Assembly: GCF_000526375.1 (NCBI RefSeq)
Contig: NZ_JAFY01000007.1
Span: forward strand, 496,001-560,000
Source of the DNA: Aminiphilus circumscriptus DSM 16581
GTDB taxonomy: Bacteria > Synergistota > Synergistia > Synergistales > Aminiphilaceae
DNA length: 64,000 bases
Reading direction: 5' to 3'
A model generated the notes under the pieces. That model was not told where the DNA came from. It searched no databases and saw nothing but the letters and a program-made list of their open reading frames with translations. The position numbers were made by a program, and so were the translations under genes. This document shows positions 1,644 to 7,006 of this stretch, piece by piece (positions within the stretch are counted from its first letter, which is position 1; every line of letters starts with the position of its first letter).

Positions 1644-2078
1644 ATGTCGAAGAGAACGGACAAATCTTCTGCCGGTCATGACGAACCCCTTCCGAATCCC
1701 TTTGCTCTCGCCTTCGGCGAGCCGGGCGGTTCCCGGACCGACCCTCCGGGGGAGGACGCCTCCTGTACCGCCGATGGCGCGGTTTCTTCGAAAAACGGCG
1801 TGTCCTCCGTCCGCGGTGACGAGGGCGGGTTTTCCGATCTGAGCACCCTCCCCAGAGTTGTCCTTCGCCGGGAGCGGAAGGGGCGGGGAGGTAAGACCGT
1901 GACCGTGGTCGAGGGAGTTCCCGTTCCTCTCGCGGAAGGGCTCGCCTGTGCGCTCCGAAAGGGGTTGGGATGCGGATCCAGGGTCGAGGAGGGAGTGGTC
2001 GTGCTTCAGGGGGATCAGGTGGAGCGGAGTGCCGCGTGGTTTACCGCCCGGGGCGTGAAAAAGGTCATCCGGGGGTGA
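1644..2078 (+). CDS. yciH: SUI1/YciH-type translation factor homologue
   Basis: 144 residues. The last 80 or so form a SUI1 domain, the bacterial counterpart of eIF1: the GKTVTVVEGVP beta-strand, a central GLG..CG turn with CGSRVEEGVVVLQGD, and a C-terminal GVKKVIRG. The first 60 residues are Ser/Asp/Gly-rich and low complexity, probably disordered; this is longer than the usual YciH leader. The bacterial family is linked to stringent selection of start codons, but its role is not settled. The ATG has a GAGGGAG site upstream and the gene may share a transcript with the HD-GYP gene. A bidirectional-looking hairpin follows at 2184-2220. Confidence 0.75.
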   Translation: MSKRTDKSSAGHDEPLPNPFALAFGEPGGSRTDPPGEDASCTADGAVSSKNGVSSVRGDEGGFSDLSTLPRVVLRRERKGRGGKTVTVVEGVPVPLAEGLACALRKGLGCGSRVEEGVVVLQGDQVERSAAWFTARGVKKVIRG

Positions 2079-2183
2079 TACCGCCGACGTGTTCCGGAGG
2101 CTGAAAGGGCGGTTCTTTTCCACGCTGGTCGGACACTCCAGGGGGAGCGCGGAAAGATGCCCCGGGCATGCGCGAAAGACGTC

Positions 2184-2220
2184 TCCGCGCCGGGATCCCG
2201 CCGCGAACTCCCGGCGCGGA
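2184..2220. terminator. Hairpin terminator between convergent genes
   Basis: A perfect 12-bp stem (2184-2195 with 2209-2220, arm TCCGCGCCGGGA) with a 13-nt loop. On the plus strand it is followed by AAACGATTTTT. It lies between the ends of the SUI1 gene and the Ldh2-type gene, so it probably stops both. Confidence 0.6.
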
Positions 2221-2230
2221 AAACGATTTT

Positions 2231-3325
2231 TCAGGAAAGGAAGCGAGGCGGTGTCAGTCCGTAACGCTCCGCGTACGTGCCGAGCAGGGTTTCCGTCGCG
2301 TCGTCCAGCTCGAATCCCTCGGCGAGTGCCTTGGCCCGGCGTTCCGTCTCCTTCTCCCCGTGGATGTAGATCCGATCCTGTCCCTCCACCCGTTTTCCCC
2401 TTCGGATTTCCTCGAGAATGCCTCCCACGTGTTCCGCGATGCTGTCCCCGTTTCCGAAGAGGTCCAGCCGGAAGGCACCGAAGAAATGGGTGATGCAGGC
2501 TCCCTGGTCGTTGAAGGTGTGGGCGCTCCAGGTGCCCATGGAGAGCCCTGAGCAGAGGAGTTCCACCAGAAGCGCCAGCCCGTATCCCTTGTGGCCTCCC
2601 AGTTCCTCCCCCTCGCCGCCGAGCAGCAGATGTCCCCCAAGCATGTCTTCTCCCTCTTGCCGGAAGAGATTCACCACGGCGGTGGCGTCGGTGGTACCCT
2701 TCCCCTCGGCGTCCACGGCCCACCCCAGAGGCATGGGTTTGTTTCTGCGGTGGCAGACCTCGACCTTGCCGTGAGCCACCACGGTGGTGGCCATGTCGAG
2801 CAGGAAGCAGGGCCTTCCCTTTCCGGCGGGGATGGCCACGGCGATGGGGTTCGTCCCGAGGACGTGCTGTTTCCCAAAAGTGGCGATGGCACAGGGTCTC
2901 GTGTTCGTGAAAGCCATGCCCACCATGTTGCGCTCCGCCGCCATTTCCGCCCAGAGCCCGGCCATCCCGTAGTGGTTGGAGTTGCGCACGGCGCAGAAGC
3001 AGGTCCCCGTCGCCTCGGCCTTCCGGAGCACGTGTTGCATGGAAAAGTCCGCCACGTAGGCTCCGATTCCCTGATTTCCGTCCACCACGAGCGAAACCGG
3101 TGTTTCGTGCACGATGACCGGTTCCGCGTCGAGCTTTGCGTGTCCTCCCCGGAGATTGGCCTCGTAGAAGGCGAGCCTCGCCACGCCGTGGGATGCGACG
3201 CCCCGGGCGTCCGCCTCCACCAGGATGCGGGCGGTGAGCTCTGCCCTCTCCTCGGAGTAGCCGAAGGCCCTGAGGACCTCCCGGGTATACTGCAGCAGTT
3301 CTTTGTAGGTGATGCGAACACTCAT
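2231..3325 (-). CDS. Ldh2/malate-type NAD(P)-dependent dehydrogenase
   Basis: 364 residues over the full length of the Ldh_2 (malate/L-lactate/ureidoglycolate dehydrogenase) family, which reduces or oxidises 2-keto/2-hydroxy acids with NAD(P). Diagnostic stretches are ARGVASHGVARL near residues 40-52, the NSNHYGMAG loop near 112, TNTRP, and the FGKQHVLGTNPIAVAIP segment near 150-166. The ATG at 3325 begins the standard family N-terminus. It lies downstream of a sodium:solute symporter and a GlcD flavoprotein on the same strand, suggesting joint use of a small hydroxyacid. The exact substrate cannot be read from the sequence; lactate, malate, sulfolactate and ureidoglycolate are all used by relatives. 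Confidence 0.8.
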   Translation of the reverse strand: MSVRITYKELLQYTREVLRAFGYSEERAELTARILVEADARGVASHGVARLAFYEANLRGGHAKLDAEPVIVHETPVSLVVDGNQGIGAYVADFSMQHVLRKAEATGTCFCAVRNSNHYGMAGLWAEMAAERNMVGMAFTNTRPCAIATFGKQHVLGTNPIAVAIPAGKGRPCFLLDMATTVVAHGKVEVCHRRNKPMPLGWAVDAEGKGTTDATAVVNLFRQEGEDMLGGHLLLGGEGEELGGHKGYGLALLVELLCSGLSMGTWSAHTFNDQGACITHFFGAFRLDLFGNGDSIAEHVGGILEEIRRGKRVEGQDRIYIHGEKETERRAKALAEGFELDDATETLLGTYAERYGLTPPRFLS

Positions 3326-3523
3326 GGACTACATCTCGCTTTCTGTCGTCGATTCGGATCGGGTCCATTCAGGATGGTAGCGTCTTTCCGGGTTTTCCGC
3401 AAAGCCTTCTCCCGGATCCCGGCGGGGGCGTACCGCATGCCGCCCCGGAGGTGTGCGGGCGGTTCCCGCTGGCCCCCCGGGGCGGCGTTCGGAAGAGCGA
3501 CTTCGTTCGGGTCGGTTTCGCCG

Positions 3524-4945
3524 TTAGGCCGTCTCGGATACGAGAAGGCTCTTGGCGGGTTCCTTGCCGAGGACCGCGCAGAGGAGGAACACGGCGAGAC
3601 AGACGGGCCATTCGAGGTAGGCCAGGTGGGGAACCACCCGGATGGCGGGAACGAAGGTCCATGCGAGCCACACGAGAATGGAGGCCGAAATGGTCCAGAA
3701 GCCCGCAATGCGCTTGCAGAGACCAGGCGTGTAGATGCCGGCGAGAATGAGCAGCGTGAAGGAGGCGGTGATGGCCAGCGCGGTGGTGATGGTGACGAGA
3801 ATGCCCCGGACCGTGAGGGCCATGAGGAAGGTGCAGATGCTCACGGCGAGGACGACCATGCGGGAGACGAACACTTCCCGATCGGGGGCGATCGTTCCCG
3901 GGAAGAAGCGTTTCCAGATGTCCTCCACGATCAGCGTGGAGCTTCCGAGAAGGAGTCCCACCGCGGTGGAGATGTCCGCCGCCCAGAGAGAGGCGAGGAA
4001 GAGTCCTCCCACGAGAGGGCTGATGTGTGCCGCGATGGAGGGAAGGGCGAGGGCCGGTTTTTCGAGGCCCGGGAACTGGGACGCGGCGATGATGCCGAAG
4101 AGAGCGCAGAGGAAGCCCGCGGGGAGAATGAGAATGCCGCCGAGAATGAAGCCGTTGCGGGCGGTCTTTTCGTCCTTGGCGGCGAAGGCGATCTGGTTGA
4201 TGGCCTGGACGGAGAAGCCCTGGGTGATCATGACCACCATCCAGGCGGTGACTACCGCGGTGCCGACGCCGGAGGTCCAGTCGAACCAGGGTTTGCCCGC
4301 GGGGAGCGCGGCGATGATGGTGTCCCATCCGCCGAAGGAGGCGCTGCTGCCGTGAAGTGCGGCGAAGATGCCCACGTAGATGACGATGACGTTGACCACG
4401 TTGGTGAGCCCTCCGGCCCAGTAGCCGCCGACCACGGTGATGAAGATGAAGATGAGGGCCGAGGCGAACATACCCGTCTGGAAGGTGAAGATGTCCGGCA
4501 GGAGGGCCGTGAGGATTGCTCCGCCCGCCACGTACTGCAGGGCCGTGATGACCATGAGGATGAGGAGCTGGGCGATCACGCCGACGGTGCGCGCTCCCTG
4601 CCCGAACATGCGCCCCATCATTTCCGGAACGGTTCTGACGTTCATCTTCCGGAAATGTTTTGCCGCGAAGAGCCCCGCGAGGATACCCGCGGCTCCCCAG
4701 GCCGCGTTATACCAGCCGGCGGAAAGGCCGCGCACGTAGGCGTTTTCCGCGACGCCCACGGTGGAGGCACCGCCGATGGCAAGGCCGGTCAGCATGGCCG
4801 CCACGAGAGGAGTGGGGAGGTGTCGTCCCGCCAGGAGATAGTCCAGCGCACCGCCCTTGCCGCTTCGCTGGATCCGCGTGGCGATCCAGGATATGAATGA
4901 AAGAAGAATGACGTAGCCTACGAGAATGGTCAACTGCACGCTCAT
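3524..4945 (-). CDS. Sodium:solute symporter (SSS family)
   Basis: 473 residues with about 13 hydrophobic segments, so a cytoplasmic-membrane transporter that should import an organic solute with sodium. The N-terminus VQLTILVGYVILLSFISW and the later GGASTVG, NAAWG and SQGF-like segments fit the SSS fold. ATG 4945 was chosen over upstream in-frame codons because a GGGAGGT site lies at the usual distance. The gene sits between the GlcD-type oxidase and the Ldh2-type dehydrogenase; in that setting lactate or another carboxylate is the natural guess. A GC-rich inverted repeat (3439-3448 with 3477-3486) lies between this gene and the next and may stabilise or end the message. Confidence 0.85.
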   Translation of the reverse strand: MSVQLTILVGYVILLSFISWIATRIQRSGKGGALDYLLAGRHLPTPLVAAMLTGLAIGGASTVGVAENAYVRGLSAGWYNAAWGAAGILAGLFAAKHFRKMNVRTVPEMMGRMFGQGARTVGVIAQLLILMVITALQYVAGGAILTALLPDIFTFQTGMFASALIFIFITVVGGYWAGGLTNVVNVIVIYVGIFAALHGSSASFGGWDTIIAALPAGKPWFDWTSGVGTAVVTAWMVVMITQGFSVQAINQIAFAAKDEKTARNGFILGGILILPAGFLCALFGIIAASQFPGLEKPALALPSIAAHISPLVGGLFLASLWAADISTAVGLLLGSSTLIVEDIWKRFFPGTIAPDREVFVSRMVVLAVSICTFLMALTVRGILVTITTALAITASFTLLILAGIYTPGLCKRIAGFWTISASILVWLAWTFVPAIRVVPHLAYLEWPVCLAVFLLCAVLGKEPAKSLLVSETA

Positions 4946-5106
4946 CTTGAAACCTCCCGCTCTCTTCTCGAACTTGGAATCCTTTTCACTTCTCTTCCTC
5001 GAAAAAACGACGGTTGTCGCAGCCTCGGAAGAGAACCCCGTTTCCCGCACCGCGGAGGACTTTTGAACGGTGTTGCTCCGCATACTCCGCTCGACTCGCC
5101 TTTTTT

Positions 5107-6552
5107 CTACACGTCGGGCACGATCTTTCCCGGATTGAGGATGTTGTTGGGATCGAACGCCTGTTTCACGCGACGGATCAGTGCGATCTGGGCCGTATCC
5201 ATCACCTCCTCCATGTATTTCCTCCGTTTCAGGCCGATGCCGTGTTCTCCCGACAGGGTCCCTCCAAGGCGGCGCACCGTGCGGTAAAGGTCGCGGAGTG
5301 CCCGGTCCATCACCTCGTGCCAGTCCGAACGGGGTTTTCGGATGACGAAGTTGACGTGCATGTTTCCGTCTCCGATGTGGCCGAAATTGATTCCCTCCAC
5401 GCCGTGCGTCTCCGTGATGCGCGTCGCCTCGCGCATCAGCTCCGGAACCGCGCTCGTGGGAACCACCACATCCTCCAGGGCGCTCTGGACGAATCCCGCC
5501 ACCATGGCCTCGCCGACGGCCTTCCTGGCCTTCCAGAGCTTGTCCCGCACGTTCCGGTTGTCTGCCACGAAGACCTCCATCGCACCGTGGCGGAAGCAGA
5601 GTTCTCCGATGCGCTCGTATTCGTCCGCGAGTGTTTCGGGGTCGTTGCCCTCGAGCTGGATGATGAGATGGGCTCCCGCATTACCGTGGGGAAGACGGGT
5701 ACTGAGATAGTCCTCCACGAGACGGATGGCGCTGCGGTCCAGAAACTCGATGGAGGCGGGGATGACCTTTCCCTCGATCATGATCCGTGGGACGAAAGCG
5801 ACCGCCGTGTCGGTGTCGGGAAAGGGAACGAGAAGATCCACTACTTTCGTCGGCAGGGGAAGGAGGCGGAGGATGATCTTCGTGATGATCCCGAGGGTTC
5901 CCTCGGAACCGGCGAGGAGATGGACGAAGTCGTAGCCTGTCACGTCCTTGCGGCGTTTGCCGCCGAACCAGGTGACGGAACCGTCGGCGAGAACCACTTC
6001 GAGGGCCAGCACCGAGGCTCCCGTGGAGCCGTACTTCACCACCTTGTTGCCTCCGGCGTTCTCCGCCACGTTGCCTCCGATGAAAGAGGCATCACCGCTG
6101 CAGGGATCTCCCGCGTAGAGAAGCCCCGCAGTGCGGGCGGCCTTCGTGATCTCCGCGGTCACCACCCCGGGTTCGACCGTGATGGTGAGGTTGTCCTCGT
6201 CCAGCTCCAGGATGCGATTCATCTTCTCCGTGGAGAGGACGATGCCTCCGTGCAGGGGAATGGCGCCTCCCGAGAGCCCCGTGCCGGCTCCCCGGGGTGT
6301 CACGGGAATGCGCAGGCGATTTGCGAGGGCGAGCAGGGCCGCAATCTGCTCCGTCGTCTCGGGAAAAACCACTACGTCGGAGAGAAATGTGTTCTCCCAA
6401 TGTCCCCTCGGTACCTGGTCGAAGGAGTAGGTTTGCCGTTTCTCCGGATCCAGGGAGACGTTCTTCTCGCCGAGGATTCCCCTGATCTCCTCCAGCACCT
6501 CTTCGGTGAGTTGTCCGTAGGCTCTTTTTTCGGAAATGTGTTCTGTGGACAT
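5107..6552 (-). CDS. glcD: FAD-linked hydroxyacid oxidase/dehydrogenase, GlcD type
   Basis: 481 residues. An FAD-binding PCMH domain covers about residues 40-215, with the PRGAGTGLSGGAIP flavin-contact loop near 80-92 and GGNVAENAGG near 145. The FAD-oxidase C-terminal domain follows, ending with GEHGIGLKRRKYM. The family oxidises glycolate or D-lactate, passing electrons to a GlcF/LldE-type iron-sulfur subunit, an electron-transfer flavoprotein or quinone. No iron-sulfur partner is encoded beside it. ATG 6552 has an AAGGAGA site 8 nt upstream. The gene is preceded by a 250-nt leader carrying a terminator and a competing antiterminator pairing, so expression is probably attenuated. Confidence 0.85.
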   Translation of the reverse strand: MSTEHISEKRAYGQLTEEVLEEIRGILGEKNVSLDPEKRQTYSFDQVPRGHWENTFLSDVVVFPETTEQIAALLALANRLRIPVTPRGAGTGLSGGAIPLHGGIVLSTEKMNRILELDEDNLTITVEPGVVTAEITKAARTAGLLYAGDPCSGDASFIGGNVAENAGGNKVVKYGSTGASVLALEVVLADGSVTWFGGKRRKDVTGYDFVHLLAGSEGTLGIITKIILRLLPLPTKVVDLLVPFPDTDTAVAFVPRIMIEGKVIPASIEFLDRSAIRLVEDYLSTRLPHGNAGAHLIIQLEGNDPETLADEYERIGELCFRHGAMEVFVADNRNVRDKLWKARKAVGEAMVAGFVQSALEDVVVPTSAVPELMREATRITETHGVEGINFGHIGDGNMHVNFVIRKPRSDWHEVMDRALRDLYRTVRRLGGTLSGEHGIGLKRRKYMEEVMDTAQIALIRRVKQAFDPNNILNPGKIVPDV

Positions 6553-6592
6553 CACGTCGTCTCCTTCTTCTTCCGTGTGGTGTGGGGCCGAG

Positions 6593-6688
6593 AAAAAAGG
6601 AAGGCCGGGAGCCCTTTCCTTCGGGCTACCCGGCCTGAGTTTCGTTCGGCACGTCCGCCTTTGCACCGACCGTTTCAGGTGGGAGCCC
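6593..6688 (-). promoter_or_regulatory. Attenuator in the glcD leader RNA
   Basis: Read on the minus strand, GGGCTCCC occurs twice (6688-6681 and 6614-6607), with its near-complement GGGTAGCCC (6631-6623) between the copies. Pairing of the complement with the second copy, extended by AGGCCGGG/CCCGGCCT, gives a terminator stem (6636-6602) followed by six U (6598-6593). Pairing with the first copy would prevent that stem. This terminator/antiterminator layout, 41 bp upstream of the glcD start codon, is typical of a riboswitch or protein-controlled leader. I did not recognise a known aptamer class upstream. Confidence 0.6.
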
Positions 6689-6808
6689 TCAGGTGGCGTA
6701 CCAAAAGTAAAAATAAAAAGACGCGTTTCCTTGTCCTGCGGAAAGACGAAACACGTACACAACCCCTCTCTTGTACGGTGCAGAAATGATCAACATTTAT
6801 GGTGCTGA

Positions 6809-6837
6809 AATTTATCAAAAAATCGCGAGAAAGTCAA
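6809..6837 (-). promoter_or_regulatory. Promoter of glcD
   Basis: On the minus strand TTGACT (6837-6832) and TAAATT (6814-6809) are 17 bp apart. The predicted start near 6802 gives a leader of about 250 nt before the glcD ATG at 6552, which leaves room for a regulatory RNA. Confidence 0.55.
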
Positions 6838-6855
6838 TGCCGGTTTTTTTGCTTG

Positions 6856-7006
6856 TTACGAGACAGTGATAATGTCACCCCTGGAACGGGATAGGGAAAA
6901 TGTCCTCGGTCACGCGCAGCGTGGTTTTTCTCTGGAACAAAGTACAGAGTAGAAGCGGTTGTTGTCTCAATCCGGCAGAGGTGGACAAAACGGCAGTTCC
7001 GGACAG
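6856..7006. repeat. IS-end-like repeat, copy A
   Basis: Two blocks match copy B at 61333-61465 in the same order. The first (6857-6900) shares ACGAGACAG, GTCA, CCCT and AACGGGA in register. The second (6985-7006) is a 22-bp block differing from B at two positions. There is no transposase ORF. The pattern of a terminal motif followed by an internal repeated motif is like the ends of IS21/IS481-type elements; I regard it as a relic or solo end. Confidence 0.45.

Follow-up and report, generated by a model that had tools for sequence, protein, structure and literature searches.

The window is a 64,000-nt stretch of the genome of Aminiphilus circumscriptus DSM 16581 (phylum Synergistota). On its minus strand lies a leader followed by genes for a GlcD-like oxidase, a sodium symporter and a dehydrogenase of the Ldh_2 family. 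The features, in the direction of transcription, are the following:

6809..6837, minus strand: sigma-70-like promoter, TTGACT-17-TAAATT with an extended TG, a consensus match only
6762..6771, minus strand: Shine-Dalgarno-like AGAGAGGGGT before the leader ORF, recognised from the sequence and its alignment with relatives
6689..6760, minus strand: leader peptide ORF, VYVFRLSAGQGNASFYFYFWYAT and stop, from a GTG start to a TGA stop, based on sequence, shuffles and identity in the genome G001
6698..6718, minus strand: putative control codons Phe-Tyr-Phe-Tyr-Phe-Trp-Tyr (FYFYFWY), with equivalent runs in 11 genera
6675..6688, minus strand: antiterminator 5' strand GGGCUCCCACCUGA (region 2), starting 9 nt past the last aromatic codon
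6623..6638, minus strand: antiterminator 3' strand UCAGGCCGGGUAGCCC (region 3), of which 6636-6623 doubles as the terminator 5' arm
6593..6636, minus strand: intrinsic terminator, AGGCCGGGUAGCCC-GAAGGAAA-GGGCUCCCGGCCU-UCC-U6, a hairpin of about -28 kcal/mol with compensating changes across lineages
5107..6552, minus strand: gene for a GlcD-like FAD-linked oxidase (PF01565 and PF02913; under the GlcD equivalog cut-off)
3524..4945, minus strand: gene for an SSS-family sodium:solute symporter (PF00474), the gene most often found after this leader type
2231..3325, minus strand: Ldh_2 (malate/L-lactate dehydrogenase family) gene (PF02615; synteny)

The promoter at 6837-6809 agrees with the consensus at 9 of 12 positions, for which 0.3-0.7 matches are expected by chance, and it is the sole sigma-70-like match within positions 2000-7000 of the window. 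TTGACA/TATAAA-like sites stand at the equivalent place in relatives, as read by eye from their sequences. A good promoter and a leader of about 250 nt with a strong terminator before glcD (ATG 6552) had been put forward in the original prediction, and both are confirmed here. When folded, the whole leader is more stable than its shuffles (z -3.3).

Within the leader we identified a short ORF, missed in the original prediction, in which a ribosome-binding site is followed by clustered codons for related amino acids, the run FYFYFWY. Its GTG start at 6760 is preceded by AGAGAGGGG, and AGAGAGGGGT aligns with AAAGAGAGGTG ahead of the leader ORFs of two relatives (G019 and G085). An alternative in-frame start is present at GTG 6754, and ATG 6796 is also in frame. 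Seven of eight consecutive codons are aromatic, a density that 1000 dinucleotide shuffles never reached. The ORF encodes Phe four times, always with TTT, while TTC is used for 104 of the 128 Phe residues (81%) of the window genes (chance 0.0012). The ORF is identical in G001, a genome of the same genus. The stop codon of the window ORF seems to be shifted upstream, as in-frame read-through would give ...PPETVGA, comparable to the PEVVGA ends in G019. A stable hairpin (6725-6757, minus strand, about ACGUGUUUC...GGAAACGCGU) lies within the first half of the ORF. It could possibly be a pause hairpin giving the ribosome time to catch up; no such hairpin was recognised in the other leaders.

Past the run, three elements are located on the minus strand, GGGCTCCC at 6688-6681, GGGTAGCCC at 6631-6623 and GGGCTCCC again at 6614-6607, with U6 at 6598-6593. 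RNA 6696-6623, without the terminator 3' arm, folds alone into the GGGCUCCCACCUGA...UCAGGCCGGGUAGCCC antiterminator (-30.8 kcal/mol), whose pairing is GGGCUCCC-A-CCUGA...UCAGG-CC-GGGUAGCCC. The terminator becomes the minimum-energy structure once the 3' arm is added, or once 6688-6675 is deleted. An intrinsic terminator (6636-6593) is found before the first structural gene, together with an antiterminator that is exclusive with it and whose 5' strand lies just past the control codons. The earlier claim of mutually exclusive stems holds, with the elements present, both folds computed and both recurring in relatives. As the two pairings recur with differing sequences, they are more than chance.

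A DNA similarity search of the leader against 41 relatives returned the same genus and one weak match in another family (G019, E 6e-4). The latter contains a short ORF ending YYFYFWF, which pointed to the equivalent ORF in the window. Across the order, a search for the exact motif ACCTGAGG...ACTCAGG gave three real leaders among the matches examined, and a search for the pattern of an aromatic run with Trp gave more. Because this pattern presupposes the answer, we also searched with the symporter protein. An ortholog (58-99% identity) is present, one each, in 39 of the 183 genomes of the order, representing 15 genera. A sequence-independent scan upstream of these orthologs detected an aromatic-run ORF followed by a U-tailed terminator in 11 of the 15 Synergistales genera, a count that includes the window genus via its leader before glcD. 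The runs are exemplified by SFYFYFWF (G085), VYFYFYFWF (G159), SFYFYYYF (G117), RLFWYGYYF (G023), SFWYGFYF (G056), RFYFYY (G017), FRYYWYW (G003) and SFYWYVAY (G171). Four symporter-bearing genera lack the leader (g4, g11, g26 and g30), which we counted against an attenuator. On the opposite strand of the same upstream regions, aromatic codons never exceed four of eight.

The usual gene order in the relatives is leader, symporter and often Ldh_2, the last following the symporter in about half of the genomes. A LarA-family gene comes after symporter and Ldh_2 in G023, G043 and G120 (Pfam-confirmed for G023 and G120). Solely in the window's genus does glcD stand between leader and symporter. Elsewhere in the order, 28 further loci with a glcD homolog carry no aromatic leader upstream, so glcD is not the ancestral partner. 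Most symporter orthologs do have such a leader, which belongs to the symporter rather than to glcD. A weak hairpin with a T-tract is located between glcD and the symporter (5007-5020, minus strand); such matches are no commoner than in shuffles. In G001, the leader and the glcD start lie at a contig end (L149 and L058 loci), and the glcD on the symporter contig is just 78% identical overall and nearly identical at its 3' end. This discrepancy presumably reflects an assembly chimera or recombination between glcD paralogs.

In two genomes of one genus (G080 and G112), a leader (MGKALLNKNFYFYWFFTFPRS..., run NFYFYWFFTF) and a terminator are found directly before the shikimate dehydrogenase gene aroE, which provides an independent link of the leader type to aromatic amino acids. 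The locus is at about 8410-9709 of L091 (G080) and at the matching place in L092 (G112). After aroE, G080 has a TctC-type solute receptor and G112 has TRAP-like transporter genes. Type-A aromatic leaders with no symporter after them are present at L053 4174-4700 (G019) and L096 8511-9050 (G010), in one family. Downstream of them lie a conserved ORF (about 55 aa; MDE..FW...GFRYSPF....KPGPF....VKS...P.WW.Y) and, next, one of 35 aa that ends in LPCLR; Pfam has no match for either.

An automatic search detected a U-tailed terminator in 22 of 23 leaders, and in all 22 of these the strand after the run can pair with the terminator 5' arm. The duplex strands differ between lineages: G085, for instance, has GGGGACUCACCUGAG:CUCAGGCCGGGUGCCC, G157 has GCGGGGAUCCCAGUC:GACUGAGGGCUUCCCCGC, and in G023 GUGGGACCUCUCGGGAG is matched by a GGGACCGGUCCCA arm. 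When strands were exchanged among 12 lineages, native strands paired better than swapped ones in both the antiterminator (native mean -20.8 versus swapped -16.5 kcal/mol) and the terminator (-24.3 versus -12.2 kcal/mol), and for each helix none of 20,000 permutations was as good. Neither G080 nor G120 stands out in the antiterminator swap matrix, and the individual duplex p-values are weak for G019 (0.18), G080 (0.10) and G120 (0.07). Inside one close group (alignment n=9), pairing is preserved in 92-94% of cells for both helices; the terminator shows two double-sided changes and the antiterminator shows none, and covariation therefore rests on the between-lineage comparison. The architecture is thus conserved with compensating sequence change over the 12 lineages, and weakly so inside the close group. 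Covariation upstream of glcD in Synergistota had been suggested as a check: it exists between lineages for both helices, but outside the genus the partner is the symporter.

Among the symporter leaders, the distance from the last aromatic codon to the antiterminator 5' strand is nearly always about 5-9 nt (9 nt in the window). The stop codon, in contrast, varies in position by more than 50 nt, from 3 nt before this strand in the window to about 50 nt past the strand's start in G117. Given the constant spacing and the variable stop, stalling on the aromatic codons is the likely signal. Phe and Tyr interchange freely among the leaders, and this and the spacing fit a response to tRNA charging better than arrest caused by a particular peptide sequence.

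We interpret the leader, from the computed ORF, run, exclusive folds and recurrence in relatives, as a ribosome-mediated transcription attenuator of the trp/phe leader type that reads the supply of charged aromatic tRNAs (probability roughly 0.88). Its translation, the stalling and the direction of the response we infer as follows. RNA polymerase would start near 6802 and a ribosome would translate the 23-codon leader peptide. When Phe-, Tyr- or Trp-tRNA is scarce, the ribosome would stall on FYFYFWY (6718-6698), so that region 2 (6688-6675) would remain available for pairing with region 3 (6638-6623); this antiterminator would block the terminator, and transcription would continue into glcD, the symporter gene and Ldh_2. 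When the aromatic tRNAs are charged, the ribosome would reach the UGA at 6691-6689 and cover region 2, upon which region 3 would pair with 6614-6602 and transcription would stop at about 6593. In relatives, a ribosome paused on the run would likewise free the strand, and one reaching the stop would cover the strand or have passed it. The signal is most likely the charging of tRNA-Phe, tRNA-Tyr and tRNA-Trp, and the leader probably senses a shortage of aromatic amino acids rather than a hydroxyacid.

The TnaC leader of the tna operon depends on Rho and on arrest of its nascent peptide at the stop codon. TnaC is also a small aromatic-containing peptide and controls genes of aromatic compound use; unlike it, the window leader has an intrinsic terminator and a codon-to-strand spacing, which point to tRNA charging. 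If a similar arrest operated here, a free aromatic compound would stall the ribosome and the operon would be induced by excess, not shortage. The downstream genes do look catabolic, and several leaders share, near the C-terminus, a short Val-Gly-Ala/Val motif (GGTCGGYGC). However, Phe and Tyr are freely exchanged, no residue pattern is common to all lineages, and the constant feature is the distance from the aromatic codons to the antiterminator strand. The stop codon and the C-terminal part vary, the window stop even preceding the VGA-coding stretch, so that neither conserved arrest residues nor a fixed stop position is found among the leaders. We consider such an arrest very unlikely.

In the original prediction, 6690-6800 was a ligand-binding sensor for hydroxyacid metabolism. 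A riboswitch with a new aptamer there, sensing lactate, glycolate or another 2-hydroxyacid, would agree with a structured leader, with the exclusive terminator and antiterminator and with the hydroxyacid enzymes downstream. Yet the putative sensor proved to be a short ORF conserved in interchangeable Phe/Tyr/Trp codons, and the lineages share no aptamer core. Rfam gave no match for the window leader (at gathering threshold, or at E up to 10) and a tRNA alone for the loci of 13 relatives; its amino-acid leader families and the T-box were likewise below the gathering threshold in the window, the leader and the loci of these relatives. This agrees with the earlier remark that the leader fits no known riboswitch family, and we regard such a riboswitch as highly improbable. 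What stands of the original prediction is an attenuator-type leader with covariation before glcD, symporter and Ldh_2; the new hydroxyacid sensor does not.

One might suspect a constitutive terminator or boundary of the ordinary kind, without regulation and with an aromatic ORF arisen by chance, given that T-rich stretches yield Phe codons easily, but this is rendered extremely unlikely by the shuffle tests on the run, by the native-versus-swapped test and by the recurrence of the order ORF, run, strand and terminator in 11 genera. Translation of the leader as an N-terminal extension of glcD, for which an open frame exists from TTG 6762 (551-aa ORF, 5107-6762), can practically be dismissed, as this frame differs from the aromatic one and contains the terminator, indels immediately upstream of glcD disrupt it in G001, and the alignment of glcD homologs starts only at about residue 10.

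The trp, phe, pheST, his and leu leader-peptide attenuators are of the Yanofsky type. A his leader of this type is described in PMC9413887. Like the trp, phe and his leaders, the window leader has a promoter, a short ORF with clustered control codons and a gene start shortly after, and its antiterminator and terminator share one arm, with a U-tract. Unlike in those leaders, the control codons mix Phe, Tyr and Trp, the targets are a sodium symporter and 2-hydroxyacid enzymes, the phylum is Synergistota and no Rfam leader matches. The window leader has every defining feature of a ribosome-mediated attenuator that is testable on sequence, and the mechanism is classical. The nearest published candidate that we found is the uORFC-13-1 motif upstream of aroF in Acholeplasma, a putative attenuator based on a uORF (PMC8632094). 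It shares with the window leader the Phe codons ahead of a terminator, and has an aromatic pathway gene downstream, but it is restricted to Acholeplasma and aroF, requires at least one Phe codon only and is unrelated in sequence (PMC8632094). Neither attenuation of these genes nor an aromatic leader peptide from Synergistota was found reported in the open-access literature, the coverage of which is incomplete and makes this weak evidence of novelty. The leaders would constitute a candidate leader-peptide attenuator family with mixed aromatic control codons, none having been found described for aromatics in Synergistota.

Some LarA homologs racemise phenyllactate and hydroxyphenyllactate (PMC11770544). 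The LarA superfamily includes hydrophobic 2-hydroxyacid racemases, and Synergistota carry about two or more members per genome (PMC7583248, PMC11770544); the substrates of the homologs that follow symporter and Ldh_2 in three leader-bearing genomes are putative. The aroE target in G080 and G112 fits regulated genes that serve the sensed amino acids, the roles of symporter, Ldh_2 and LarA being putative. These last targets (LarA only in some genomes) suggest, without proving, aryl-lactate uptake and oxidation that rebuilds aromatic amino acids. On a looser reading, the symporter and the dehydrogenases may import aromatic 2-hydroxyacids (aryl-lactates) and oxidise them to aryl-pyruvates, which could be transaminated to Phe, Tyr and Trp. 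Such a route fits a gene set that comprises a 2-hydroxyacid dehydrogenase and a GlcD-like oxidase along with a symporter and a LarA homolog; direct uptake of aromatic amino acids would also fit the symporter. A prephenate dehydratase gene is present in the window genome and in most, not all, symporter genomes. The window organism is therefore probably no Phe auxotroph and its need for salvage is not obvious; Phe auxotrophy as the reason for the leader was rejected on this basis. That one mixed Phe/Tyr/Trp leader, spread through Synergistota, is a general aromatic-starvation switch for aryl-lactate import and oxidation as a source of these amino acids is a tentative proposal, somewhat doubtful in our judgement.

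The attenuator replaces a puzzling 'unknown riboswitch' with a readily testable mechanism. It would tie an orphan SSS symporter and Ldh_2, with LarA in some genomes, to aromatic metabolism, and would narrow the search for their substrates to aromatic 2-hydroxyacids, aromatic amino acids or close precursors. If the proposed switch is real, these bacteria would salvage amino acids from fermentation products, namely the phenyl-, hydroxyphenyl- and indolelactate of other microbes.
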